The notes below the pieces were generated by a model, which was not told where the DNA came from, ran no database searches, and worked only from the letters and a program-made list of their open reading frames with translations. From IMG/VR virus record IMGVR_UViG_3300013131_000281, positions 1-21,578 of that record: a DNA stretch of 21,578 nucleotides; one strand, written 5' to 3'. The translations under genes and the position numbers were made by a program. Source of the stretch: a virus. How positions within the stretch are numbered: position 1 is the first letter of the stretch; each line of letters begins with the position of its first letter. Of this stretch, positions 1 through 21,290 are shown piece by piece.

Positions 1-549
1 GCCAATTGGTATCCCAACCGGCTGGCCATAGTCAGCAAACTGCATCATCACATCAACAAACCGCTTGTCCTTGATTTGGCGCTCGATTTGGGTGCGCAAC
101 ACGGCGCGGTCAATGCTGTAGAAGAACTTGCGAATGTCGAGCTGCAGGATGTAGCTGTCTGGCGCGCTGCGGCGCAAGGCTTGCTGGGCATAGTCGGCTG
201 CAGCATGGGTTCCTTTGCCTTTACGGCAGGCAAAGGACTGGTCGATGAACGTGCGGTTGAAAATGGGGTAAATCAATCGGTAGATGGCGTGCTGCACAAC
301 CAGGTCACGAAAAGCCGGGGCAAAGATGGTGCGCGGCTTGGGCTCATACACCATAAACTCGTGATACGGCTGCGGCTTGTAGCTGCCACTGTGCAACTCT
401 TGGTGCAGGGCATCCAGGTTGCTGGCCAGGTGACGCGAGAACTCAAATGTTGCACGCTTGTTGCGCTTGCCTGCGCTGGCGTCTACCCAGGCTTGGTAGA
501 GCGACTCCCTGGTAAATGCCTGTTCAAACAGAAACCCTATCCGTTTCAA
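1..549 (-). CDS. DGR reverse transcriptase (3' end beyond the window)
   Basis: This is the reverse transcriptase that copies the template repeat RNA into adenine-mutagenised cDNA. Only the first 183 residues are present; the frame is open to the window edge. Visible RT features are an N-terminal MKRIGFLFEQ-type start, a motif 2 region (FRDLVVQHAIYRLIYPIFNR, residues 80-99), SFACRKGKGTHAA (105-117), motif 3/A LDIRKFFYSID (137-147) with D138 as the first catalytic Asp, and the start of the GxPxG motif (GIPIG, 179-183) at the edge. The YxDD box would lie outside the window. A TTG start at 549 is chosen because the frame closes just upstream (stop near 586), DGR RTs commonly begin with this type of sequence, and a GGGGG stretch (557-561) lies 7 nt upstream. 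The TTG overlaps the TGA of the open frame running through the template repeat. Family assignment is confident; the start is less so. Confidence 0.93.
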   Translation of the reverse strand, partial: MKRIGFLFEQAFTRESLYQAWVDASAGKRNKRATFEFSRHLASNLDALHQELHSGSYKPQPYHEFMVYEPKPRTIFAPAFRDLVVQHAIYRLIYPIFNRTFIDQSFACRKGKGTHAAADYAQQALRRSAPDSYILQLDIRKFFYSIDRAVLRTQIERQIKDKRFVDVMMQFADYGQPVGIPIG

Positions 550-691
550 AGGATGACCCCCAGGCGTTCGAGCACAACATGGTGCCTACTGGTAAGTGGG
601 TGTCCAGCAGATTTCGCAAGAGCTCTCGCTAAATGCAGGAAAGCGCCTCCCTTTGTTCCACCGTTTCTTTTCAGAATTCGAGGTCCAGAGT
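550..691 (-). other. Spacer between template repeat and RT (DGR Sp region)
   Basis: This 142-nt stretch lies between the template repeat and the RT start codon. In the Bordetella phage DGR, a spacer of about this length downstream of TR is part of the template RNA and is needed for cDNA priming (established for that system). No independent gene is seen. The frame carrying the TR stays open across it and stops at 546, overlapping the RT start. Its role as an RNA element is inferred from position and length. Confidence 0.5.
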
Positions 692-805
692 CGGGGCGAG
701 CGCCAATGTTGTTGTTGGAATTCGCCCGGGTGTTGTTGCAATTGAGAGCGAAAACCCCAGAGGTAGCCGCGTTGTTCCAATTGCCGCCACGGAACGGCAA
801 AGCCT
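692..805 (-). repeat. DGR template repeat (TR)
   Basis: This is the invariant 114-bp template for mutagenic homing. It aligns without gaps to the variable repeat 582 bp away (1274-1387). On the coding strand it has 24 adenines, 23 of them inside ten AAY, two ACC and one ATT codons when read in the target frame. None of those codons can become a stop when A is changed to any base. Of the 24 adenines, 14 differ in VR; 88 of 90 non-adenines are identical. The TR begins 8 bp after the avd stop codon. The end nearest the RT carries a GC-rich block (692-704), shared with VR, that corresponds to the initiation-of-mutagenic-homing end. Confidence 0.97.
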
Positions 806-813
806 GTAACATA

Positions 814-1242
814 TTAAGACGCTTCCCTTTTGTTCCCCGCTGCCGGGGTAATGGGTGCCGGATTCTCGTCTCGAATCCAGCCGCCAATCAAACGCCCAAT
901 TTCATCAATCATGCGACTGAGCGTTTCATAGCGATCTTCTGGCGATTTCTGATGGGCCACATTAAGCGTGCCGTCTTTGTAGGCAAAGTAGCCCAATTCA
1001 AACGCCAGCCTGACAAACATGCGCAACTGCTCGTGGCTGATGTCCAGGTTTGTCAAGCTTGTTTTCTTATGGTACCGCTTCTGGGACTCAACAATGAAGC
1101 CGTACACATCGTAAGCCTTGTTTCGGATTTGCAAGCAAATGCCGTACTTTTCATGGCGTGGAAAGTGATTCAGATACAGGTTCATTTGACGCGCAAAGTC
1201 AATGAACTTGGTATCGAGTTTGGCTTCAGAGTGAGTACCCAT
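814..1242 (-). CDS. avd: Avd, DGR accessory variability determinant
   Basis: Avd proteins are small four-helix-bundle proteins that form a pentameric barrel, bind the DGR RT and template RNA, and are needed for mutagenic homing. This 142-residue protein is of typical length, is basic overall and is predicted to be mostly helical, with recognisable stretches such as KYGICLQIRNKAYDVYGFI (residues 32-50), QKRYHKKTSLTNLDI (54-68) and ARQMNLYLNHFPRHEK (17-32). It lies between the variable repeat and the template repeat, the standard position in BPP-1-type DGRs. Its ATG starts 18 bases after the target gene's stop, inside a hairpin (1232-1262), and no strong Shine-Dalgarno is seen. Translation is therefore probably coupled to the upstream gene or controlled by the hairpin. 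The C-terminal tail (about 128-142) looks unstructured. Confidence 0.9.
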   Translation of the reverse strand: MGTHSEAKLDTKFIDFARQMNLYLNHFPRHEKYGICLQIRNKAYDVYGFIVESQKRYHKKTSLTNLDISHEQLRMFVRLAFELGYFAYKDGTLNVAHQKSPEDRYETLSRMIDEIGRLIGGWIRDENPAPITPAAGNKREAS

Positions 1243-1262
1243 CGCTATCGCTCAGGTACTCA
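1232..1262 (-). promoter_or_regulatory. Hairpin just downstream of the variable repeat
   Basis: This is a perfect 8-bp inverted repeat, TGAGTACC (1232-1239) and GGTACTCA (1255-1262), with a 15-nt loop. It begins 11 bp beyond the VR end. DGR targets in several phages carry a hairpin or cruciform just after VR that raises homing efficiency. Here it also contains the target stop codon (1260-1262) and the avd ATG (1240-1242). Confidence 0.65.
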
Positions 1263-2339
1263 GAGAACAAAGGCGGGGCGAGCGCCAAAGTAGGCGTTGG
1301 AATACGCCCGGGGGTAGTAGCAAAGGAGAGCGAAAACCCCAGAGGGCGCCGCGTTGTCCCAAGAGCCGCCACGGCACGGCAAAGCCTCAATTGCAGTGTT
1401 AATCCAAAAGCCGTCGCCATTTGCAGCGGGCACAGCGATGGTTCCACCCAGCAGAGAAGCCACGGGATACAGGCCATGCGCTTTGAGTAGCGACAAGGCA
1501 GTTGCACCGACAGGGGTGGCTCCGGGGTTGGTCATAGCCTCGAACGAGGCTCCCGATGAGCGCACCAGCGTGTAGTTGGCTGTGCCCGATGTGGCGTACT
1601 TCACAGTGTTGGCCGAGCCGGGTGCCACCAGCGCGCCAGTTGCGCCGTCAATGGCTTTCCAGGCTGCAGATGCCACGCCGAAATCGGTGGCGTTCAATGC
1701 AGCGTCATTGTTGACGATGATTTGAATCTCTCCCATGTTGACGCGCATACCCGGCGTCCATTCCCACACTAACCCGCACAGATCAGAGATGCCACTGGAG
1801 CTATTGTCGTGCCGCCACGAAGCCGGGCCTGAGCCGGTCAACGTTCTTCCGGTACCGGATGCGGTTCCGGGAGCCAAGCCGTCAATACGGCGACCAGTTT
1901 CCCAGGCGGCGTCGCTGGATTTTCCCCAGTTAGTATTGCCGCGAGGCTGGAAGCTGTTGGCACGACACCAAAGCGCAATACCCGCCATGGCCACGTTTGG
2001 TACGACGTGATGACCAACACCGCAAGCGCGCGCATAAGCGACAGCCTGATCGTGATTGATGCTTGTTTTGCAATCAACGCCGGGCAAACTCAGCAGCTCG
2101 CCATTTTTGACAATGCCGGGGTAACTTCCAAAAAAATACTCGCTTTTTTCAACGCCATTCACGATGAACATCGGATGTACGCCAGCAGGCAGTCCAGCAT
2201 CAACGTCCTGGCCGTTAAATTTTGGAATCACGTTCATAAATGTCGGCTGACCGGTGGCGGTGTAGAGCACGGTCTGACGGCCGCCACTGGCAGCCTCAAC
2301 GCTCGCCCGTAGGTCGTCTTTGATAAAAATGGTCGGCAT
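1260..2339 (-). CDS. DGR-diversified receptor-binding protein (FGE-type C-type lectin fold)
   Basis: This is the variable protein of the DGR and probably the adhesin at the tip of the tail fibre. The 359-residue product carries a formylglycine-generating-enzyme/C-type-lectin-like domain, seen in EYFFGSYPGIVKNGELLSLP (67-86), the segment around VAMAGIALWCRANSFQPRGN (116-135), SWRHDNSSSGISDLCGLVWE (174-193) and the final RGGSWDN...FGARP block (323-355). The VR covers residues 318-355, and the variable residues are 326, 328, 332, 339, 341-343, 346 and 349-351. The first 65 residues may attach it to the virion. A GGAG sequence lies 7 nt before the ATG. It follows the tail fibre genes and precedes avd. 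Fold and DGR role are confident; receptor binding is inferred from position. Confidence 0.92.
   Translation of the reverse strand: MPTIFIKDDLRASVEAASGGRQTVLYTATGQPTFMNVIPKFNGQDVDAGLPAGVHPMFIVNGVEKSEYFFGSYPGIVKNGELLSLPGVDCKTSINHDQAVAYARACGVGHHVVPNVAMAGIALWCRANSFQPRGNTNWGKSSDAAWETGRRIDGLAPGTASGTGRTLTGSGPASWRHDNSSSGISDLCGLVWEWTPGMRVNMGEIQIIVNNDAALNATDFGVASAAWKAIDGATGALVAPGSANTVKYATSGTANYTLVRSSGASFEAMTNPGATPVGATALSLLKAHGLYPVASLLGGTIAVPAANGDGFWINTAIEALPCRGGSWDNAAPSGVFALLCYYPRAYSNAYFGARPAFVL
1274..1387 (-). repeat. DGR variable repeat (VR)
   Basis: This 114-bp copy of the template repeat forms the last part of the target gene and ends 14 bp before its stop codon. Differences from TR fall at 14 positions where TR has A (coding strand), plus two T-to-G differences at 1347 (silent, Ala) and 1375 (Phe to Cys). 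Amino-acid replacements relative to the TR reading are N to S, D, L, Y or A, T to P, and I to F. The GC-rich end (1274-1286, CGGGGCGAGCGCC on the + strand) is identical to TR and corresponds to the initiation-of-mutagenic-homing site. Confidence 0.97.
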
Positions 2340-2362
2340 GGTTTTCTCCTGAAATTAAAGGG

Positions 2363-2686
2363 TTAGCCCACGGTGGGCCAAAGGGTGACTTGGACCGCAT
2401 TGGGGTCAAGCGGCAGAGCTTCCTGAATGCTGGTTGGGTTGCCTTGCGCATCGTCAAGTCCTGGAACGTTGACATAGCACTTTGGCGGTATGTCGATCTG
2501 CGCCAGGTAGGCGCCGTTGCCGCCTTCGGTGGCGTTGGTGATGGTTCCGCAAATTGAGATGTTGACTGTGCTATCGCTCTGGCGAGCAGCGCAGTCAATG
2601 GATACACCAGCAACAGCAATGACTGCGTCAGAAATTGAAAAATTGGCTACCGGCTGACCGGGTTGTTTAAGGGTGATTTGAGGCAT
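2363..2686 (-). CDS. Small virion-associated protein of unknown function
   Basis: This 107-residue protein is not recognised as a named family. It is rich in beta-forming residues, has no membrane segment or signal peptide, and starts MPQITLKQPGQPVANFSISD. It has four cysteines and a short acidic stretch near GLDDAQGNP (residues 76-84). A TAGGAG Shine-Dalgarno sits about 6 nt before the ATG. It lies between a tail-fibre gene and the DGR target gene. It could be a connector, a chaperone, or a cap domain that attaches the variable protein to the fibre. That role is inference from position only. Confidence 0.7.
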   Translation of the reverse strand: MPQITLKQPGQPVANFSISDAVIAVAGVSIDCAARQSDSTVNISICGTITNATEGGNGAYLAQIDIPPKCYVNVPGLDDAQGNPTSIQEALPLDPNAVQVTLWPTVG

Positions 2687-2702
2687 GTTGGGCTCCTAAA
2701 AA

Positions 2703-3635
2703 TTAGTACGTGGTCGGGGATGAAGCATGAAAATTGGTTACAAAATCAGTTACCGGAAGCTGACTTGGCAGCGATAGCCGAGATGCGCGCCAGCGGACAA
2801 CCACGTTGTCGGCTGCACTGGCCAAAGTGGCGGTAAAACCGTTGGTCTGCCTGCCTGTGACCACAATCGCTTTGGTGTCGCATGGAGCGCCACTAAACGA
2901 CGCCACATCGAAGTCGAGGCGGTAGTCGTTGGCATCCATGATTTTTAAGATTGGGGATGCAGAAGGCGGAGAGTCAAGATGGGCTGGGTAGTTGGCCTCG
3001 ACCCTGGCGGTTGCTGTGACCGTAACGCCCGCCAGCGCTGCGTCGGTATTTGACGCAGGGACTGTGATGCTGCAAACTTTGATGCTATTTGATGGAATAT
3101 CCGACCCAAACGCCGTCACGCGGAAAATGATGTTTGCACTGCCATCAAGTGACAAATACCCGTAGCACACCGCAGAAGATGCGCCCCCTTCAGGCACCGA
3201 GAGACTTTGCTGTGCTGTGATGTTGTACGTTCTGCCATTCATAAAACACTTGCCATCAGCAATTGACAATAGGCGGCTGGAGCCGTACTTAGTAATTGCA
3301 CCGCCCGAGACAAGCCCCCGGTTGGTGATGGTGAACTCTCCCTCTTGCTGAACATGCTGGCGCAATGACCGGATACTGGCATTGGCCTGCGCGGACTGGT
3401 CCAGGGCAAACTTCAGGATGGCATCCTGCATGTTTTTGGTGTCTTCAGACACCGTGATGTTGATTCCGTTAACAGTAATGGCCAGAGTCTCCAGAACGCT
3501 TTTCAGGTAAGCCGTGCGGTTGGTCAGGTGTTTGTGCGGCAGGTTGTCGATGCCGTTGACGCCGCCCGTGATGGGGTCGGTACTTTCGAGTTGATAGACC
3601 GCATCCCAGGATACGGATTCAGCAAGGTTTGACAT
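2703..3635 (-). CDS. Tail fibre protein
   Basis: The 310-residue product has the N-terminal signature of Mu/P2-type tail fibres that attach to the baseplate: YQLESTDPITGGVNGIDNLP (14-33) followed by LTNRTAYLK (37-45). After a short helical linker (about 64-95) comes beta-rich sequence with GGAITKYGSSRLLSIADGKC (111-130) and repeated Thr/Ala/Val strands to the end. It has no C-terminal chaperone or peptidase domain. A GAGG Shine-Dalgarno precedes the ATG. It is followed by the small gene at 2363 and the DGR target. The fibre may therefore be the shaft carrying the variable tip protein, which is an inference. It is shorter than most complete fibres, consistent with a separate adhesin. Confidence 0.8.
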   Translation of the reverse strand: MSNLAESVSWDAVYQLESTDPITGGVNGIDNLPHKHLTNRTAYLKSVLETLAITVNGINITVSEDTKNMQDAILKFALDQSAQANASIRSLRQHVQQEGEFTITNRGLVSGGAITKYGSSRLLSIADGKCFMNGRTYNITAQQSLSVPEGGASSAVCYGYLSLDGSANIIFRVTAFGSDIPSNSIKVCSITVPASNTDAALAGVTVTATARVEANYPAHLDSPPSASPILKIMDANDYRLDFDVASFSGAPCDTKAIVVTGRQTNGFTATLASAADNVVVRWRASRLSLPSQLPVTDFVTNFHASSPTTY

Positions 3636-3654
3636 GTAGTTGTCCTCTTTGAGA

Positions 3655-4098
3655 TTAGTAAATCAGCGTCCACGTCCCGGTCAGGGAGATGTCGATGTCT
3701 TTGAGAAGCGGTCCGCTACGCACTTTGCGGGCGTGCAAGATGCCAGACGCAGTCAATAAGCCAAATTCGCTAATCGACAACCCAACCGCCTCTGATGTGG
3801 ACAAGGAAAAATTGAACTGAACCGAGGTGCTTACCGGATAAGAGTGCGAGTCGATGGCTTTGACAAAAGCACCGGTCAACGCGGTGTCAGCAGGATTTGC
3901 AGCTGTACCATTTGTGCCAAAACCGATATTGACAATGCTCCGGCCCGACACGTCACCAGCCACCAGCCTGACGACACTTTCTCGACCTTTGGTCACAATC
4001 AGGTTGTCGTCTTCAAAATGCTCTATGAGATGACCGTGACGAAAAATGTCAAGCGCAAAAATTCCTCTTGGCTTTAACGATGGGTCGGTGAATTTCAT
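3655..4098 (-). CDS. Baseplate/tail-fibre-associated structural protein
   Basis: This 147-residue protein contains the pattern GHLIEHFEDDNLIVTKGRES (21-40), then VAGDVSGRSIVNIGFGTNGT (45-64). This resembles small proteins found next to gpI-like and tail fibre genes in many Gram-negative phages. It is beta-rich throughout, with no membrane segment. The ATG at 4098 is preferred over an upstream GTG at 4140 because GAGGA lies 7 nt before it. The GTG would lie inside a recurrent intergenic motif (4133-4144). It sits between the I-like baseplate protein and the tail fibre, so a fibre-attachment role is likely but not proven. Confidence 0.72.
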   Translation of the reverse strand: MKFTDPSLKPRGIFALDIFRHGHLIEHFEDDNLIVTKGRESVVRLVAGDVSGRSIVNIGFGTNGTAANPADTALTGAFVKAIDSHSYPVSTSVQFNFSLSTSEAVGLSISEFGLLTASGILHARKVRSGPLLKDIDISLTGTWTLIY

Positions 4099-4132
4099 GC
4101 AGCGTTCCTCAAACTGGATTGGCTGCAAAGAT

Positions 4133-4144
4133 AGCGTCACGACT
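4133..4144 (-). promoter_or_regulatory. Recurrent junction motif, copy 1
   Basis: The core GTCGTGAC (minus strand, 4143-4136) is followed by GCTATCTTT, close to the RCYACC pattern of the other four copies. It overlaps the stop codon of the upstream gene (TAG, 4145-4143) and lies 37 nt before the ATG at 4098. This is the weakest match after the core. Function is unknown. Confidence 0.5.
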
Positions 4145-5210
4145 ACAAAGACTCACCCCACGAGGTTGCTCCACCATACAAAACCGTGCCAAAAGTCCGT
4201 GGAATTCCGTTGTAGTGCAGACTTCCATCGCGCACCGATCCTCGGCGGTAACGCCCGTCACGCGCCAAAACCTTTGTTACCGTCATGCCGCACTGATCCT
4301 GTCCGTCGCTGACGATTCCGCGCCGATTCATTAAGCCATCGCGCTTGTAGCCGCTGCCATAAGTCACAGTCTGGGCAAAGGTGTCTTGCCAAGTGATGTC
4401 GGCATTCATCCCCATGGGATCGATTTCGTCACCATAGGTCGGTGCGTTTGGCAAAGCGTGCCAGCCATCGCGCAACGTCAGGCCATTGCGAGCCACCGTG
4501 TTGTTGTAGAGGTCGTATTGCACTGCACCACGAAACACAGACCCGTCACGAATGGGGCGAGCGCCACGGTACAGGTCTTGCAATGGCGCATGTTCGAGCT
4601 GGTAAGACAGGATGCCGTCCGCACCTGATGTGGAGGCATCAGACAAGCTGCCGGTAAAACTTAGAGTACGCAGTTTGGTTCCAGCGTCACGTAGGCGCTC
4701 AATGACCGATTTGATCCGGTTCCCAAGATCATTGAGACTCTCGCCTGAAGTCAGGTCGTAACCGGTGTTGACGTCAAATTGGCCGTAAAAGTTGCGGGTG
4801 CTCGGCACGCGGTCTTTTTTTCCGTCGAAAAATGTTGCGCCATCACGGTACAAAGTCGTGGTGACCGTGTCCATAGGGGCATCAGTCACAGTGACCTGCA
4901 AGCCGTTGACATACAAGCTGATCGCGTTTTGCAGAGCGATGTTGTTGCCTTTGGGATGGACTAGCTCCGAGATGATGCGCGGACCGTACGCGCCATCAGG
5001 CTCGGAGGCCAGCCTTGGAATGCCAAAGTAGCCACCCCACTCGTCTAGCCACTCGCCATCAGCGGTTGTGAGCAGCATTTGATCCAAAGCCGACGCTATG
5101 TCTGACTGCGCCTGCGTCAATTCTTGCGCAATTGGCGCAAAAAAGTCCTGTAAAACGCCAGGCTCTTTATTGAAAGAGTTTGGCAGGCTGTTAAGCAGTT
5201 TATTGATCAC
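4143..5210 (-). CDS. Baseplate wedge protein, P2 gpI/Mu gp48-like
   Basis: The product is the wedge protein that normally follows the J-like protein and links baseplate to fibres. N-terminal hallmarks are a helical start, QMLLTTADGEWLDEWGGYFG (44-63) and RIISELVHPKGNNIALQNAI (78-97), typical of tail protein I. Unlike P2 gpI (about 176 residues) it has a long C-terminal half with repeated R-[DNR]-G turns: residues 221, 227, 241, 247, 290, 296, 317, 322 and 327, many 5-6 residues apart. It starts with GTG, overlapping the J-like stop (GTGA), so translation is probably coupled. The C-terminal repeats may be a beta-structured fibre-docking extension. Family assignment is fairly confident; the function of the repeats is unknown. 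Confidence 0.82.
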   Translation of the reverse strand: MINKLLNSLPNSFNKEPGVLQDFFAPIAQELTQAQSDIASALDQMLLTTADGEWLDEWGGYFGIPRLASEPDGAYGPRIISELVHPKGNNIALQNAISLYVNGLQVTVTDAPMDTVTTTLYRDGATFFDGKKDRVPSTRNFYGQFDVNTGYDLTSGESLNDLGNRIKSVIERLRDAGTKLRTLSFTGSLSDASTSGADGILSYQLEHAPLQDLYRGARPIRDGSVFRGAVQYDLYNNTVARNGLTLRDGWHALPNAPTYGDEIDPMGMNADITWQDTFAQTVTYGSGYKRDGLMNRRGIVSDGQDQCGMTVTKVLARDGRYRRGSVRDGSLHYNGIPRTFGTVLYGGATSWGESL

Positions 5211-6298
5211 AGTGTCACCGTTCCTGGCATGGCTTTTTGTATGGCAGTGACCACAACGTCAGACGCAGGGGTCGCAAGCGAGACGTTGTAAACCCCGCTG
5301 ATGGCCATGATGGCCGAGATAAGCTCAGACCGGATCACCGGCTGCCCTATGCCCAAGGCCTGAATGTAGCTTTTGATGGCATCACCGGCTGCAACAGAGA
5401 CGCTTGCCGTGCCACTGTCAAGTGTGATGGTTCCAGTGACATCGACCAGGTAATCTTGCGCGGCATACACGTCAACAACAACTCCAGCCGCTTTCCACCC
5501 AGGTGTTGTTCCAGAGCCGTTTACGTCTGATTGAACTTTGTTGACCAAGGTGGCTGATGTGTTGCCTGATCCGTTGTGAACGTATAAATTGACCAAACCA
5601 ACCGGTTGAGTTGCATCGTTCAGGTATGGCTCAATGATGGCAATGTGCTTGGCCTGCTCCACGATTGACCCTACAGAGTCCACCACAGCAGACTGTGTGG
5701 CACCGTAGCGCAGGGATGCGCCTGTGCCGCGCGACAGGGTCGAGATGTAGGCTGTAAAACGGCTTTTTCTGGATGCGTCTGTTTCGGCATCCGCGCCATT
5801 TACCAGCGCAAGCGGGTTTGTCACGCCGGTAACCCCCGCGATGGCGTTGACGATGGTGGTCAACGTATTGGCAGCGCAGTTTCCCAAGGACCCTGTTTCT
5901 GTGCAGGCAACCAGGGCATCGACGTAGGTCTGGCCAACCTCAATCACCACGGCATTCAATGTGGCGTACTCAAAACCTGAGCTGTCTGACTTGATTATTG
6001 TCCCCAGCGGAATTTCGACCCGACTGGCAGAAACGTCACACGAGAACCGAACCGTGCCACTGGCCGCAATGGCAGGCAGCGCGGCGAAGTTGAATGAGTT
6101 GAACACCGATACCGGGATAGCCTCTTGCAGTCCGAGCAAAATTTGCAAGTAAAGCTCTTCAATCTCGACGGCTGACGCTTCCATCAACGTGCGGGCAACG
6201 GAGCCAACGGAGAAGTCGGTGATCTTGCTGCCATTAGCTCGCGAGACATTGATCATGCTCGCGGCAATTGAACGAAAGTCTTTGATTTGGAACGTCAC
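5207..6298 (-). CDS. Baseplate J-like protein (P2 gpJ/Mu gp47 family)
   Basis: This is a wedge component that forms the ring around the tail hub. The 363-residue length and motifs fit the family: TDFSVGSVARTLMEASAVEI (27-46), the beta barrel around SASRVEIPLGTIIKSDSSGF (90-109), and NGADAETDASRKSRF (167-181), which matches the conserved G...E-D...R.RF block. The C-terminal GQPVIRSELISAIMAISGVY segment is also typical. The start is GTG, chosen because GGAG (6308-6305) lies 6 nt upstream and overlaps the stop of the preceding gene (TAGGAG). It is followed directly by the I-like gene. Confidence 0.9.
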   Translation of the reverse strand: MTFQIKDFRSIAASMINVSRANGSKITDFSVGSVARTLMEASAVEIEELYLQILLGLQEAIPVSVFNSFNFAALPAIAASGTVRFSCDVSASRVEIPLGTIIKSDSSGFEYATLNAVVIEVGQTYVDALVACTETGSLGNCAANTLTTIVNAIAGVTGVTNPLALVNGADAETDASRKSRFTAYISTLSRGTGASLRYGATQSAVVDSVGSIVEQAKHIAIIEPYLNDATQPVGLVNLYVHNGSGNTSATLVNKVQSDVNGSGTTPGWKAAGVVVDVYAAQDYLVDVTGTITLDSGTASVSVAAGDAIKSYIQALGIGQPVIRSELISAIMAISGVYNVSLATPASDVVVTAIQKAMPGTVTL

Positions 6299-6307
6299 AG
6301 GCTACTC

Positions 6308-6919
6308 CTAAATTTCGACTTGCAGACGCAAGGGTGTTCCATCGTTGACCAAGGCGGTGACATCAACTTTGATGACATCACCATCTTGTGAGGCTGCGCC
6401 ATCTTGCACAGATACCACGCGCGGGTCGCCCAAGAGGCACTCTTCACAAAAACGCAATGCCAGTAAAGATGCATTGGCATTCGCTTTGTGGCCGCGCAGC
6501 TTGAAGGCATCGTTGCCGTATTTGGGATGAAACGCCAGGCAGCCTTTGTCATTGCGCAGCCGCAGCTCCAGCGCCTGTTTTAGGTTTGGCCCGCCAACGG
6601 CCAAATCCAAGTCGCCGTTGGATACCGTCAATGCGCCATTTGTCAAAAGGACATCTATTCCAAACGATTGCGCGGGAGTCACGCCCTGCTGCTGCGTTTT
6701 AGCTACAGGAACCAGAATAACGCTGCCAAATACCAAAATGCGGCCTGATGCCACGCCTGGCAGAAAAGCGTCTGCTGTCAGGTATGGCGGCAGCAGGTGA
6801 TTGAGCCAGGCCAGCTCTGGCCAGCGCGTTGCATCGCCCATTTCGCGCGCGGCGATGCGCTGCAGGGTGTCGCCGTGTTCGGTTTTGATGGCTTTCCAGC
6901 CTGATGCCATGACAGTCAT
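6308..6919 (-). CDS. Baseplate wedge protein: LysM-like N-terminus fused to GPW/gp25 domain
   Basis: The first 75 residues look like a LysM/T4 gp53 or tail X module: HGDTLQRIAAREMGDATRWP (15-34) followed by LAWLNHLLPPYL. Residues about 100-200 look like GPW/gp25: DLDLAVGGPNLKQALELRLR (103-122), CLAFHPKYGN (127-136) and LLGDPRVVSV (162-171). In T4, gp25 and gp53 are separate wedge proteins, and gp25 initiates sheath polymerisation. Here they appear joined. It overlaps the preceding gene by 4 bp (ATGA) with AAGG upstream. A second ATG at codon 4 is possible. It precedes the J-like gene, as W precedes J in P2. Confidence 0.83.
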   Translation of the reverse strand: MTVMASGWKAIKTEHGDTLQRIAAREMGDATRWPELAWLNHLLPPYLTADAFLPGVASGRILVFGSVILVPVAKTQQQGVTPAQSFGIDVLLTNGALTVSNGDLDLAVGGPNLKQALELRLRNDKGCLAFHPKYGNDAFKLRGHKANANASLLALRFCEECLLGDPRVVSVQDGAASQDGDVIKVDVTALVNDGTPLRLQVEI

Positions 6920-8121: not shown

Positions 8122-10044
8122 CTACTGCTTGGCGGCTGCTTCGGCTTGGAACTTTGCCATGTTGGCCATTACACCGGCCATGAATTTATCGTACTTGGCC
8201 GGGTCAACGTTTGTGAAAGGCAGCCACCGGCCACGGCAATGTACATGCTGAGCACCCGATGCAATCCACCACAGCTCGTCAGGCTCGCGGTCATACAGCC
8301 TGCCGTCCACCATCTTCTTCGGCGACGATGACCGCCCGATGTTGGTCTTGCCCGCCCAAATCTCGGTCATGCCGTCTTTGTTGGGCTTGGCCGGGTCCAC
8401 CACCGTGACCACCCGGCCGTCGATCTTGTGGCACCAGGCGCAAACGCCCTTGTACTGCTCAATGCGCTTGAGCTTGGCTCCCGGGCCGCTGGCAGACACC
8501 ACGCCCTGTGCCGCGTTTTCGCTGACCTCTGTGACCGCAATCCGCCGCCAGTCACGGTTAGCCGTAGAGAACTTGTCAAACAGCAGCATCTCCAGGCTCT
8601 GAGGTTTGCCACCCAAAATCATCTCCTGCTGGTGCTCAAGGATCACCGAGCGAACCCCAGCGCGCAGCCGGTCGCCCATGTCAACGATGGCCTGCGCGCA
8701 CCGCTCGCGCGCGAACGCCACCATGGCACGGGTGACAGCCGACACCGGCAAGCCAAGCTCCACGACCGCTTCAATGTTGGCCGGGATGGCTGCGGCCACA
8801 CCTGCTGCCACCAACGCGCTCGGTGGTTTGGCCGCCAGCCCGGCCTCAATCTGGCCCAGCAGTGTGGACTTCACGGCCAGCCAATTTGCCATGCTAGAGG
8901 CCCACTGCGGCGACCAATACTGCTGCAGTAGCCACTCGACCAACATGGAATAGTCCTCTGGCAGCCATAGCGCGCGCGGCTTGGAGTGAAAGTAGTTGCT
9001 CCAGGCGCTCAGCTCGACTTGTGTCCAATGCACGGGCACGTCGGGCATCAGCAGCGCCGGTAGCGAGTTCTTTTTGTGAGGTTGACCGTGGGACGCAAGC
9101 CACCATAGCAGCGCGTCCTTGAAGGACTGCAGGCCGGACTGGCCGGTGTGGGTGAAGGCCTCGACAAGATCGGCTAGGTAAGGCGAATCGAACGGAGCCC
9201 AAATATCGTGCTCGTGGCTGGGTTTTATGGCCTTGCCGAGGTAGGTGCCCACATCGGAATCAGGCACTGGCATGGAGATGCCCACAACATGAATGTCAAG
9301 GTACGACTTGCCAAGAAGCATTGCATCAATTAAACTGTCATCGCAGCAGCGACAGAAGCCGATGGACCCAACGGTCACAGGTTTGCTGCCGGTGGGGTAA
9401 CTCCCGGACTCAGTAGAGTCCCGAAAGACCGAAGGCGCTGACCCAGATGGCTCACTCTTTTGCAGTGGGCCATCATTCTTTGTGCGATCCTGATGCCCAA
9501 GAATGAAGGCAACCTTGCTCACTGGCATCGTGTACGAAGAATCAAAAACGTAGAGTTTTCTCGCAGAACTCCACGCCAAAGCGACCACATGATGATGCCC
9601 GTCTATTTTTCTCTCAAAAAGCAAATCAGCGCCAAACTGAACAGCTTTGGTTTGCGGGTATTCGATGGTTTGAACGATCCTATCCATCAGTTTTGCCCGA
9701 CTTAACAAGAACGTTCGCGGCCCATTTTTGTGCTTTGGGTCATCAAAGCAATCCGGCACATCGCCATTTTCAGATTTTTGTGTGTAGGCGTGCGTTTCTG
9801 CTCCTGGGAAATCGACTTTTATCTTGATGGTGCGATTCCACCCATCTTTGACGCGACCAACATGCACCAATAGAGGCAACACCTTGCCGCCGATGTTCTT
9901 GTCCCACCATGACTTTGCTTGCTCAAACGACTTAATGCTGGAGCTTTCTGACACATCAAAAGAGGTTGGGGCCGTGGTGAATTGACCAGTCCCGCTATCG
10001 TGGTTTGGGTTTCCGATAGGTTTTTCTGGTGAAGTGTTTTCCAT
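8122..10044 (-). CDS. Minor head protein (SPP1 gp7/Mu gpF type) fused to a barnase/EndoU-like nuclease domain
   Basis: The C-terminal part is a phage head morphogenesis domain: RIAVTEVSENAAQGVV (501-516), GVCAWCHKIDGRV (533-545) with a CxxC-H, and HVHCRGRWLPF (600-610). These match the conserved TE...C..C..DG...H..CRC pattern of minor head proteins. Residues about 45-180 resemble the phage-Barnase-EndoU-ColicinE5/D-RelE (PBECR) nuclease domains that phages fuse to head or portal proteins, for example FLLSRAKLMDRIVQTIEYPQ (112-131) and LLFERKIDGHHHVVALAW (141-158). Between lies an uncharacterised segment with CRCC (231-234). The gene has a 193-bp leader region and a weak AAGG 6 nt before the ATG. 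Head domain is well supported; nuclease call is moderate, and activity is not shown. Confidence 0.8.
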   Translation of the reverse strand: MENTSPEKPIGNPNHDSGTGQFTTAPTSFDVSESSSIKSFEQAKSWWDKNIGGKVLPLLVHVGRVKDGWNRTIKIKVDFPGAETHAYTQKSENGDVPDCFDDPKHKNGPRTFLLSRAKLMDRIVQTIEYPQTKAVQFGADLLFERKIDGHHHVVALAWSSARKLYVFDSSYTMPVSKVAFILGHQDRTKNDGPLQKSEPSGSAPSVFRDSTESGSYPTGSKPVTVGSIGFCRCCDDSLIDAMLLGKSYLDIHVVGISMPVPDSDVGTYLGKAIKPSHEHDIWAPFDSPYLADLVEAFTHTGQSGLQSFKDALLWWLASHGQPHKKNSLPALLMPDVPVHWTQVELSAWSNYFHSKPRALWLPEDYSMLVEWLLQQYWSPQWASSMANWLAVKSTLLGQIEAGLAAKPPSALVAAGVAAAIPANIEAVVELGLPVSAVTRAMVAFARERCAQAIVDMGDRLRAGVRSVILEHQQEMILGGKPQSLEMLLFDKFSTANRDWRRIAVTEVSENAAQGVVSASGPGAKLKRIEQYKGVCAWCHKIDGRVVTVVDPAKPNKDGMTEIWAGKTNIGRSSSPKKMVDGRLYDREPDELWWIASGAQHVHCRGRWLPFTNVDPAKYDKFMAGVMANMAKFQAEAAAKQ

Positions 10045-10072
10045 AACTGGCCTTACGTGCCTGAGACAAAGA

Positions 10073-10131
10073 GTCGCGGCACACCAGTCGGGCAGAACCG
10101 GCTTTTCGGCAGATCAAGACCTAGCCGCGAC
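10073..10131. repeat. Inverted repeat in leader of the minor head gene
   Basis: GTCGCGGC (10073-10080) and GCCGCGAC (10124-10131) are exact inverted copies separated by 43 bp, all within the untranslated region before the start at 10044. A long-loop RNA hairpin or paired binding sites are possible. It could be chance in GC-rich DNA. Confidence 0.35.
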
Positions 10132-16843: not shown

Positions 16844-18246
16844 TCATAAACCCCTTGGCCGTACACATACGGGTGCTGCGCATTGGTGCGGTTGACAAAA
16901 CCAGTGCCGCGTGAGTACTGAAGCGAGCTGGTGTAGCCCTTGAATGGCTCAAAGGTGTGGGTGACTGCCGTGACGTAGCAAGATGCTTTGAGGCCGTTTT
17001 GCCACGTAATGTCGCAGTAGTGACCCACCTTGTACTCAGGTCGTCCAGCGCAGGTGATCGACCCCGACTCGAACACCGCGTTGTCAATGTTGCTTTGTTG
17101 CAGATACCCGATTTGCCGAGCGAGATACGCTGTGACGTAGTTCATGGCGGGTGCATGCTCTTCTTTTGGCATACCAGGAAACAAGAGAGCACCATGGTTG
17201 GTGTTGACCTCCATGGAACGCCTGCCAAACAGCGTCAAGTCGCAATTCTCAAAGCCCACGCCATCGGTTACCAACTTCTGGCCATCGCCCATCACCGACT
17301 GCACAATGGTATCCATGCCCGTCATGAAGTCGGTGATGGGTGCACGCACGTAGTAAAAGTTGGCCACATCTCGCTCAGATCGGCTGTACTTGATGGCCGT
17401 GATCTCACTGGGCGGCACAGCAAAGGACTTGGCCGAGGTATTCGGGAAGATGTATTCGTCTTTTTGCAGCTTTTTGAAAGCAGGCTTGCGGTAGCAGAAG
17501 GTGGTTTCACTTTCGCCGTCCTCAAAGAATGATTCATAGAACGGGCCGAGATTCCCATGCTTCTGAATGTGGCTCCACATCGTGCCTTCCGGGTTGGCTT
17601 GATAACCCTGTGGGTAGACGATGTCGTCAGCGTCAGCACCATCCAGGTTCAAAAGAATGGGATGCAGCGCATTGTTGGACAAGCCGGTGATAAACGTGTT
17701 TACCACATTGGAAATCATCAACCCAACAAACTGCGCCGCCGACATGGACCCATATGGGATGTTGAACTTTTCCTGCATGTACTGGCCTGACATTTGGATG
17801 ATCAAGTCGTCCAAGCTTGAGCCTTTAAGAAACAGAATTTGGATCATGCGCAGAAACGCACTATAGTCGTTTCCGGTGATGGTGACTGTGCGCTTTGCAG
17901 CCTGCCCCATGGACTCGTCTAAATTGACATCCGTGACCACGCCGCGCATCACCATCATCGGCTTGCCGGTGCGGCTCATGCGGATTTCAATCGCGTCCAT
18001 GGGCTCCACCAGGCCGTAAATTGAATCACCGTACTTCGGCACAAATTGATCTCCAAGACGTATGGTGAACCCATTGTTCGGACTGTTAATGGATCGCTGT
18101 GTTGTGACCGAACTTCCTTCATTGAAGAAAGGCGTAAGGTCCAGCATATTGAATGCGCCAAAACGATCGTGGGTAGCGTTGCGCTTGCGCGCTGATGACT
18201 TGTACAAAATAACGCTGATTTGCGGGGTAAAAACAGAAACCGTCAT
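16840..18246 (-). CDS. Baseplate hub protein (gpD/gp27-like)
   Basis: This 468-residue protein follows the tape measure and precedes the spike, as tail hubs do. The N-terminal half (VEPMDAIEIRMSRTGKPMMV, about 81-100; VVTDVNLDESMGQAAKRTVT, about 103-122) and the late segment GRPEYKVGHYCDITWQNGLK resemble late-control-D or Mu gp44-type hub barrels. No enzymatic domain is visible; peptidoglycan cleavage is provided by the tape measure. The ATG overlaps the tape-measure stop by 4 bp, with GGAG 7 nt upstream. The exact family would need a profile search. Confidence 0.78.
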   Translation of the reverse strand: MTVSVFTPQISVILYKSSARKRNATHDRFGAFNMLDLTPFFNEGSSVTTQRSINSPNNGFTIRLGDQFVPKYGDSIYGLVEPMDAIEIRMSRTGKPMMVMRGVVTDVNLDESMGQAAKRTVTITGNDYSAFLRMIQILFLKGSSLDDLIIQMSGQYMQEKFNIPYGSMSAAQFVGLMISNVVNTFITGLSNNALHPILLNLDGADADDIVYPQGYQANPEGTMWSHIQKHGNLGPFYESFFEDGESETTFCYRKPAFKKLQKDEYIFPNTSAKSFAVPPSEITAIKYSRSERDVANFYYVRAPITDFMTGMDTIVQSVMGDGQKLVTDGVGFENCDLTLFGRRSMEVNTNHGALLFPGMPKEEHAPAMNYVTAYLARQIGYLQQSNIDNAVFESGSITCAGRPEYKVGHYCDITWQNGLKASCYVTAVTHTFEPFKGYTSSLQYSRGTGFVNRTNAQHPYVYGQGVYE

Positions 18247-21200
18247 GCCAACGCTCCAGTCGCACGCGGCTTAATCACACCAGACGATTGAACTGACTGA
18301 ACTTGTCGCTCGTAGCCTGATCCTGACCCAACATCAATCTGGGCAAAGTAGTTCAGCGGCGAAAAGGACAGCGACACCCGCTGAGCGTCGGCTTTTGCCT
18401 TGGCCTCGGCTTTTGATTGAGGGTCTCCATCTGGTATTCGAGCTGGCGCTTGAGGATTGCCAAGATTGACAGCTTTCTGACGATTGATTTTTGCCCGGTG
18501 ACCAGCGATTTTTAACGGATACTTCTCTGTTTCAAGAAAGCCTTTGTCGCGATTGCCAAAGCCAGCGTTGTACGACTTTTGCGCCATCTCAACCGTTGGG
18601 TTTCTTTTTAATTCTTGCCTCATGCGAAGCCTAAACATTTCAGCCGCATCCATGGGGTCAAAAACATCAAATTTGCGCCCGGCCATCTTTTCAACATCAG
18701 CTTGCGCATCTGGCGTGAACTGCGCCAGACCACGCGCCCCGGCCGGGCTTACTGCCAACGGACTCATGCTACTTTCAGCCATGAATGTCGCTTGCGTTGT
18801 CCCAGGTAGCCAATTGGAATTGATGCCACGAAGCTCTGCATCAATCGCCGCCATCTTGGCGTTCAGCTCTGGTGGAATAGCACCATCCAATCTCCGAGGG
18901 TCGTTCGTCATGCCTTTGCGGATTGACTGCCCGGCGTATGAGCCCATCTCATCTTTTTGTGCAGCATCAAGCCTAGCAAGCTCTTCTGGACGATTGCCAA
19001 CAATCTTGCGCTGCCGGTCATAGAAAGCGTTGCGGTCAGCCATAGCCTGCGGGTTGGTTCCAAACGCATCACGCGCAGTCTGCTTAGCGGCCTCAATGCG
19101 CAGTTTCCCTTGTTCGGATTCGGGTGCCATCCAGCTCAACAAATCGGACAACAAGTCTTTTGTTCCCAGCGCAGCCGGAATCAGCTTGTCAGCCATTCTC
19201 GCCGTTGATTGCTCAATCTTTGCTGCCGTCTCTTGCGCCTGCTCCCCCTGAGTTTTTTCACGCTCAAAGGTGTTGGCTACTTTGACCAAGGTGTCTTGAA
19301 GCTCTTTCGGATTGGTAATCGATTTGGCTTTGTCAAGGCTCGCCTTCTGCTCACTGGTTAGCCCTGCCCGAGCGGCCATCTTGTCGCGCACTGCCATCAA
19401 GTCAGCAGGCTTTCCCCCGGCTTGCTGAATGTCAGACATGGCCATCAAGCCGTGAGCGGACAGCTTGGTTAGGTCAACCGTGTCTTTGTATTGGCCAAAC
19501 ATCTGAGTTAAGCCGGTTAATTTGTGTTGGCTGCGCAGGTTGAACAGGGTCGCCATTTCCTCCGGGTTTATCTTGAAATGGTTGGAGGCGCTAAGTAGCT
19601 GAGTTTTCTTGTCCACGCCCCGTCGGTCAAACATGTCCAACACTTGCTCAAGGCCAGAACTTTCGCCACCAAACCTGGTCATGTCTGCTTCGCCATCTGA
19701 CCGAAGAAACTTGTTGACCTGGCTGTTCTTGTTGCCAAACACACTGTCTCCTGTGGCAAACATGCCAGCGGCCTGACGCATCTTGACACCCAACAGGCCC
19801 ACCCTGTCGCCACCCATGGCCATGAACTGCAAGGTGTTAGACGCTTCCCCCATGCCGCCGCCCTGTTGGAACGAAGAATCAGCACGGTTCAAGATGTTGG
19901 CTGAGTTGCCCACGTTTCCATGCAATCCTGGTGTGTTGGAACCCACCATGGCCGACAACAGGCCAGCAAACCCCTCGACGTTAGCTACACCAAGGCTGCG
20001 TTGCGCCGTGCTTGCCGCAAAGCTTCCCATGGCCCCCATCAGGTCGCCAGCGTTCAAGACAGACCCGGTACGTTTGAGGGCCTCGGCAAACTGGATCGAT
20101 AAAATTTTTGCATCGGCTGCCTTCTCGCTCAGTGAACCACTGCGCCGCATGGTTGCCATAAACCCAATGCCCTGCGATTCGTCAACACCAGTGGCCTGCG
20201 CCAAATCAATTGCAGTTGACGCTATGGATGGAGAATTGGTTTTTGCAAGCCCAGCAAATTCCATTGTCAGCTTGCGGGATTGCTCATAAGTCAAGTTGAA
20301 TTGTTCGCCGACAGCACGGCTTTGACCGCGCAGTTGCTCAAAGCTTTCTGTTGTAGCTCCAAGCGACCTGCGAAATTTGTCAATTTCAATGTTTTCTTTT
20401 TTGCCAGCGTCTAACTTGTCGTTCACTGCCCCCACGCCAGAACTCACGGCCTGGAAAGCGCCGTATGCCAAAGCAGCAACACCTCCGCCCTTGACTATGC
20501 CAGCCAGCCCTAATCCGCCAGCACTGGCCTGCTCTGCCCCACGAGCAAATGAAGCCATTGCCCCACCCACCACGCCTCCAGAGCCAAGGCCCTGCACCGC
20601 GCTATGGGCGATTTTGCTGAATCGGCTGTCGTTTGCGGCTTTGCGCTGTTTGGGTTTGAGGTCTTCTTGCTGATTTGGTACTTCTGTTCTGACGCGCCCC
20701 GTAAGTTCGTTATAGCTGAGGCCAACGTCAGCAGGCCTGGTACCAGTGTTTGAGTTGTGCAGCATCAGGCGCGTCATTACGGCCTGCATGTAGTTGCGAT
20801 CCTGCCGCAACGATTGGTCAATTTGAACTGGTGTAAGAGGCCTATTGCCAGGACCTTGATTGACATGATTGAGAGGCCCACGCACCGTTGTGCTAAGCCT
20901 GATAACTTCTTTGAAGTCATCAATCAGTTTTTTGAGATCGTCTGCGTTTTCAGCAACATTCAGAAGCTTAACGGGCTTGCCTAAATTTTTGCCAATTTCT
21001 TGAGTGAAGGCATTGACCGAATCGGCCATGTCTTGAAGTTGCTTGACGGAGTAGCTGGTGTCAACCTTGACTGGCTTGTTTGAAACCTGCTCGACTTTCC
21101 CAGCAGCGGTACTGGCCGCTTGCGATACGCTGTTAAGTTGATTTACCGCATCGGATGCATCAACTTTGACCGACTTGTTTGAAACTTGGTCGACTTTCCC

Positions 21201-21290
21201 CGCAGCCGTTTCAGCGGCCTGAGCGACATCATCAAGTTGCTTGGATGAGTCGCCGGTATCGACCTTGATTCTTACTCCCATTTCAGCCAT
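18243..21290 (-). CDS. Tail tape measure protein with C-terminal lytic transglycosylase domain
   Basis: This is the longest gene (1015 residues), mostly helical with Ala/Gly/Gln-rich stretches as in tape measures, which set tail length. Residues 9 to about 95 hold two complete and one partial 33-residue repeats (AAGKVxQVSNKxVKVD). A Gly/Ala-rich hydrophobic stretch lies at about 235-290. Residues about 830-935 form an SLT-type domain: MAESSMSPLA with probable catalytic Glu839, GARGLAQFTP (851-860) and YNAG (907-910). Phages use such domains to open the cell wall during DNA entry. The ATG at 21290 follows GAGG by 9 nt and overlaps the upstream gene. Length is modest for a myovirus tape measure. 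Confidence 0.9.
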   Translation of the reverse strand: MAEMGVRIKVDTGDSSKQLDDVAQAAETAAGKVDQVSNKSVKVDASDAVNQLNSVSQAASTAAGKVEQVSNKPVKVDTSYSVKQLQDMADSVNAFTQEIGKNLGKPVKLLNVAENADDLKKLIDDFKEVIRLSTTVRGPLNHVNQGPGNRPLTPVQIDQSLRQDRNYMQAVMTRLMLHNSNTGTRPADVGLSYNELTGRVRTEVPNQQEDLKPKQRKAANDSRFSKIAHSAVQGLGSGGVVGGAMASFARGAEQASAGGLGLAGIVKGGGVAALAYGAFQAVSSGVGAVNDKLDAGKKENIEIDKFRRSLGATTESFEQLRGQSRAVGEQFNLTYEQSRKLTMEFAGLAKTNSPSIASTAIDLAQATGVDESQGIGFMATMRRSGSLSEKAADAKILSIQFAEALKRTGSVLNAGDLMGAMGSFAASTAQRSLGVANVEGFAGLLSAMVGSNTPGLHGNVGNSANILNRADSSFQQGGGMGEASNTLQFMAMGGDRVGLLGVKMRQAAGMFATGDSVFGNKNSQVNKFLRSDGEADMTRFGGESSGLEQVLDMFDRRGVDKKTQLLSASNHFKINPEEMATLFNLRSQHKLTGLTQMFGQYKDTVDLTKLSAHGLMAMSDIQQAGGKPADLMAVRDKMAARAGLTSEQKASLDKAKSITNPKELQDTLVKVANTFEREKTQGEQAQETAAKIEQSTARMADKLIPAALGTKDLLSDLLSWMAPESEQGKLRIEAAKQTARDAFGTNPQAMADRNAFYDRQRKIVGNRPEELARLDAAQKDEMGSYAGQSIRKGMTNDPRRLDGAIPPELNAKMAAIDAELRGINSNWLPGTTQATFMAESSMSPLAVSPAGARGLAQFTPDAQADVEKMAGRKFDVFDPMDAAEMFRLRMRQELKRNPTVEMAQKSYNAGFGNRDKGFLETEKYPLKIAGHRAKINRQKAVNLGNPQAPARIPDGDPQSKAEAKAKADAQRVSLSFSPLNYFAQIDVGSGSGYERQVQSVQSSGVIKPRATGALA
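21009..21266 (-). repeat. 99-bp tandem repeat in the tape measure gene
   Basis: Two complete 99-bp units (21266-21168 and 21167-21069) and a diverged partial third encode 33-residue coiled-coil repeats. CTTGTTTGAAAC on the + strand recurs at 21075 and 21174. The repeats are diverged, so this is an old duplication. Confidence 0.75.

Follow-up and report, generated by a model that had tools for sequence, protein, structure and literature searches.

We find that the window, the entire 21,578-base virus record IMGVR_UViG_3300013131_000281, encodes a phage diversity-generating retroelement (DGR) of the BPP-1 kind, and we put the probability that this reading, with the mechanism proposed here, best explains the locus as a whole at about 96%. 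The core parts had been predicted from the sequence to follow the BPP-1 order, and all of them were located in that order, namely a target gene with a 3' variable repeat (VR), a GRNA-loop hairpin, avd, the template repeat (TR), and the reverse transcriptase (RT) (Table 1). In the proposed mechanism, folding of the avd-TR-spacer-RT transcript would present the TR to an RT-Avd complex by means of the spacer and a helix that pairs the end of avd with it, and the RT would copy the TR while misreading its adenines. The mutagenized cDNA would then overwrite the VR in the 3' part of the target gene, with the TR left unchanged, and two elements would direct it there, the GC-rich 3' end of the repeat and the GRNA-loop hairpin directly after it. 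The product would be an FGE-type C-type-lectin protein with a varied binding face, most likely situated at the end of a tail fiber.

Table 1. Features of the DGR and its neighborhood, in window coordinates
Feature	Position (nt)	Strand	Remarks
DGR cassette	2339-1	minus	order: target with 3' VR, GRNA-loop hairpin, avd, TR, RT
DGR RT with TTG start, 183 codons in the window	1..549	minus	phrog_1423, RVT_1
TR-RT spacer (Sp), a structured RNA	550..689	minus	covariation
Long-range helix, 3' arm	637..649	minus	inside spacer
Template repeat (TR)	690..803	minus	holds 24 adenines, most of them within AAY codons (target frame)
avd, accessory variability determinant, 142 aa	814..1242	minus	PF22296, phrog_3206
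Long-range helix, 5' arm	816..828	minus	in final avd codons; partner of 637-649
Hairpin with GATA (GRNA) loop	1232..1262	minus	spans target stop and avd start
Target, 359 aa, FGE-type C-type-lectin variable protein (predicted)	1260..2339	minus	5VF4 homology, phrog_2889
Variable repeat (VR)	1272..1385	minus	3' end of target
Small protein between fiber and target	2363..2686	minus	phrog_8734, function unknown
Tail-fiber-like protein	2703..3635	minus	N-terminal 75-95 residues match 'tail fiber protein' families phrog_4209 and phrog_3100
Baseplate genes (Mu gp48-like, Baseplate_J, sheath initiator)	4143..6919	minus	profile matches
Tape measure with lytic transglycosylase	18243-21290	minus	

All credible genes of the window lie on the minus strand, where a series of tape measure, tail and PAAR genes, lysis genes, a tail tube initiator, and a sheath initiator continues through Baseplate_J, a Mu gp48-like gene, a tail fiber gene, and a small gene before reaching the DGR. 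Judged by these assignments, the series is the tail cluster of a contractile-tailed phage. Within it, a 640-aa ORF (8122-10044, minus strand) found no match in Pfam and PHROG searches, and by eye only, its C-terminal Cys/His pattern resembles the Mu F-type domain. The gap before this ORF holds a match to the int-alpA RNA (Rfam RF02996; 38.7 bits against a cut-off of 35.8; 10059-10131, minus strand), an odd position for a tail cluster.

The target is homologous to TaqVP of Thermus aquaticus (PDB 5VF4; E 3.1e-84, residues 5-359), a protein that its authors describe as having an FGE-subtype C-type-lectin fold and coming from a prophage DGR (PMC6328139). It also matches phrog_2889 (3.5e-122) and has no Pfam match, and a search of PDB sequences with the target retrieved TaqVP, with no chain of Mtd among the hits up to E 1. 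An AlphaFold model from a ten-sequence alignment reached a pLDDT of 34 and was unusable. The full-length TaqVP match supports an FGE-type C-type-lectin fold around the VR, in agreement with the predicted target of this fold without recognizable Mtd sequence. The target had also been predicted to follow tail-fiber genes, and profile matches place both baseplate and tail-fiber genes upstream of it. This position, the annotation of target homologs as antireceptor or virion structural protein, and the preponderance of tail proteins among the targets of phage-dominated DGR clades (PMC8144416) all argue against a real DGR whose diversified protein is not a tail receptor binder and has some other role, a reading that we consider unlikely even though the fold is shared with the formylglycine-generating enzyme (PMC6328139). 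We infer that the target is placed at the tail tip of the particle, binds a receptor there, and allows the phage to switch its host receptor specificity.

The contig end cuts the RT at window base 1, leaving 183 of about 339 codons and stopping just inside the GIPIG... motif; since the record ends inside the RT, YxDD lies outside the window. A search with DGR-family profiles, as the original prediction had proposed, matched the fragment to the DGR RT family phrog_1423 across all 183 residues (3.8e-68). Profile search also matched RVT_1, and the closest named relatives of the fragment are DGR RTs. The product of avd matches PF22296 bAvd (1.5e-16) and phrog_3206, 'Avd protein of DGR' (4.3e-21). 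Related RTs were present on 57 viral contigs and on six genome contigs (Comamonadaceae, Rhodocyclales, Halopseudomonas, Sulfuricurvum, Polaromonas, and Sulfurovum). When the test of the RT frame was run on these relatives, their frames were open and YVDD was present in 54/54 read, preceded by IGNLLSQ or, in one, by IGNLMSQ; the relatives carrying YVDD reach 92% RT identity to the window. The TTG start is common to close relatives, with ATG in others.

Near-identical pairs of related contigs from different metagenomes allowed VR variation to be observed directly, and the TR was identical within each of three such pairs. Between the closest relatives of the window (L072 and L065; RT 92%), 13,077 nt contain 23 substitutions, of which the 117-nt VR holds 18, together with a 3-base deletion. 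The second pair (L005 and L014), compared over 2,861 nt, shows 13 substitutions, 12 in the VR and 11 of these at TR adenines. The third pair (L021 and L024) has 10 substitutions in the VR, all at TR adenines, and 19 elsewhere in 6,672 nt. VR differences are concentrated at TR adenines when the predicted pattern is sought in relatives, and this turnover is mutagenic homing in nature, in relatives of the window phage. An exact-pattern scan for other copies of the window phage itself returned one match of 22 nt, by chance. The VR of L065 (6953-7047) carries an in-frame 3-nt deletion relative to the TR in its AAC-rich part, which suggests copying slippage.

The recent VR turnover in relatives, their complete RTs at up to 92% RT identity, and the intactness of the RT, avd, and target as far as visible weigh against a decayed, inactive DGR whose repeat would be a relic of earlier mutagenesis and whose RT would be broken beyond the contig end. 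We regard such decay as very unlikely, although the RT does run off the record and a single VR is known for the window phage, and we infer that the DGR of the window phage is active. One Comamonadaceae genome contig (L059), with an RT 85% identical to that of the window, places this DGR lineage in Comamonadaceae prophages, since lysis genes follow its RT and lead on to ftsB and enolase (eno), the last two of which we named by reading rather than by profile; its positions 1-5360 appear as a prophage end. Two more target homologs, 75% and 84% identical, lie elsewhere in the same genome (L084 and L086), one of them matched over residues 1-283 only, and they possibly belong to further DGRs in one genome. 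Neither matches the TR used as a query, and we set them aside as a second target in this genome.

A direct repeat of 120 nt (686-805 and 1268-1387, spacing 582) was found independently, and within it, 15/25 adenines but only 3/95 other bases are changed (Fisher p = 4e-10). The original prediction had described 114 aligned base pairs of TR and VR with 14/24 adenines changed; the length and the 88/90 identical non-adenines stand, while our recount gives 15/24 changed adenines. In the minus-strand reading, these 15 adenines became 7 T, 6 C, and 2 G in the VR. The window holds no further VR copy, with the next best place matching 42/90 non-adenine positions. Read in the target frame, nearly all TR adenines belong to AAY or ACC codons. 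Mutation cannot convert any TR codon to a stop, and the reachable target variants amount to ~10^14 proteins.

TR/VR pairs were detected automatically in 57 loci, including the window, and 47 of the pairs are unique. Across these 47, 736/1263 TR adenines are changed compared to 41/4114 non-adenines (C 9/1438, G 10/1532, T 22/1144), as counted with a pair finder that tolerates adenine differences more than others and so aids the detection of adenine-differing pairs. Neither the size of the adenine contrast nor the contig comparisons, in which such a score enters only in VR placement, depend on this tolerance. Together, the window pair and the 47 unique pairs uphold the claim of adenine-specific mutagenic homing. 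An ordinary duplication of the target 3' end that diverged by point mutation or recombination would leave a direct repeat such as this one, but it is refuted by the base bias within the 120 nt. The same bias across the 47 pairs and the adjoining avd and DGR RT also speak against it, and we give it almost no credence.

Both a GC-rich VR end (IMH) and a downstream GRNA-loop hairpin are present in the window. The hairpin 3' of the VR reads GAGTACC-TGAGC-GATA-GCGAT-GGGTACTC, with a DNA fold of -7.4 kcal/mol (z -2.4), and its GATA loop fits the GRNA consensus of Guo et al. (PMC3240598). Its stem is interrupted, unlike the perfect 7-10 bp stems of published cases. Since this interruption makes a longest-perfect-stem statistic uninformative, we replaced it with an alignment-based count. 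Among 18 close relatives, both sides are changed in two of the outer pairs (in 7 and 5 sequences), and C-GRNA-G lies downstream of the VR in 39/40 distinct sequences, with L058 as the exception. Perfect stems of 7-8 bp are present in more distant relatives (L049, L050, L052, and L063).

We also found covariation in the RNA that surrounds the TR. In the spacer, 94.4% of cells are paired compared to about 40-53% in slid controls, and 20 of the 32 predicted pairs show both-side changes; no shuffle reached the observed covariation, a count that is not a probability since the shuffle controls keep sequence relatedness. Across the TR, the last codons of avd pair with part of the spacer in a 13-bp helix, with 98.6% of cells paired across 28 sequences compared to 47-69% in slid controls. 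Changes on both sides occur in 9/13 of its pairs, a value reached by 0/1000 shuffles, which is likewise to be read as a count under controls that keep relatedness. In sequences where this helix is the best match, TR/VR homology starts 0-14 nt past the avd arm. Similar helices are present in Bise, BalMu-1, and Lagaffe, and the best candidate in BPP-1, of 8 bp, does not outperform shuffled sequences. A local hairpin predicted at about 638-651 of the spacer shows no variation and is in competition with the long-range helix, and we set it aside in favor of the latter.

Searches of Rfam with the spacer gave no match up to E 10, the Phage_DGR model RF03022 included, and RF03022 likewise has no match in L061. 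Our own covariance model detects L060, L061, Bise (69 bits), and, with a weak match, L063, and has no credible match to BPP-1. In BPP-1, an avd motif at the gene's 3' end terminates reverse transcription (PMC12875486), and the avd-spacer helix would be a natural candidate for ending reverse transcription in the window lineage. We tentatively propose, with rather less than even confidence, that this lineage has a distinct, uncatalogued structural class of DGR RNA in which a covarying spacer is combined with a 13-bp helix that loops out the whole TR and marks the 5' boundary of the copied stretch. Since similar helices occur in distant phage DGRs, a helix-based definition of the template could be a general DGR rule.

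The class, the gene order, and the target family are already known, and what is new here is this individual element, with modest new content in the population evidence and in an uncatalogued RNA with a template-enclosing helix. Our findings add a well-populated environmental lineage of phage DGRs, link it to the isolated phage Bise, where the DGR could be studied, and provide evidence from natural populations for recent retargeting. With the covarying RNA, the public DGR RNA model would reach past the BPP-1 group, and the avd-spacer helix leads to a testable prediction on what ends the copied stretch.

Among known systems, Pseudomonas phage Bise (OR683401; L076) shares the order of baseplate J, fiber region, small gene, target, four-helix Avd, TR, and RT. 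Its target is 49.7% and its RT 62.8% identical to those of the window, its spacer is detected by our covariance model, and its TR/VR pair differs at 9/25 adenines and at 0 other bases; on the other hand, the phage and host are different, as is the hairpin sequence. The Bise record annotates an RT and a four-helix protein and no DGR, leaving the DGR of this isolated P. aeruginosa phage unannotated. The mtd-avd-TR-brt DGR of Bordetella phage BPP-1 resembles the window in order, adenine mutagenesis, and the GRNA-loop hairpin after the VR, and its TR-RT spacer is of similar length (144 nt compared to ~139 nt). However, its brt is 42.7% identical to the window RT, its target is Mtd rather than a TaqVP-like protein, and its spacer is matched by RF03022 (104.7 bits), while that of the window is not. 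The RF03022 Phage_DGR RNA occupies the same position after the TR and presumably has the same role, with no match in the window even at E 10. TaqVP of Thermus aquaticus is a full-length homolog of the target with the FGE-type C-type-lectin fold and comes from a prophage DGR with avd, but host and VR sequence differ. More distant and of other phage types, the DGRs of Vibrio VHML / VP58.5, Pseudoalteromonas ACA1, Bacillus BalMu-1, and Faecalibacterium Lagaffe combine avd, TR, and RT with homologous targets of 31-37% identity, some of which are annotated as SUMF1-like or antireceptor.
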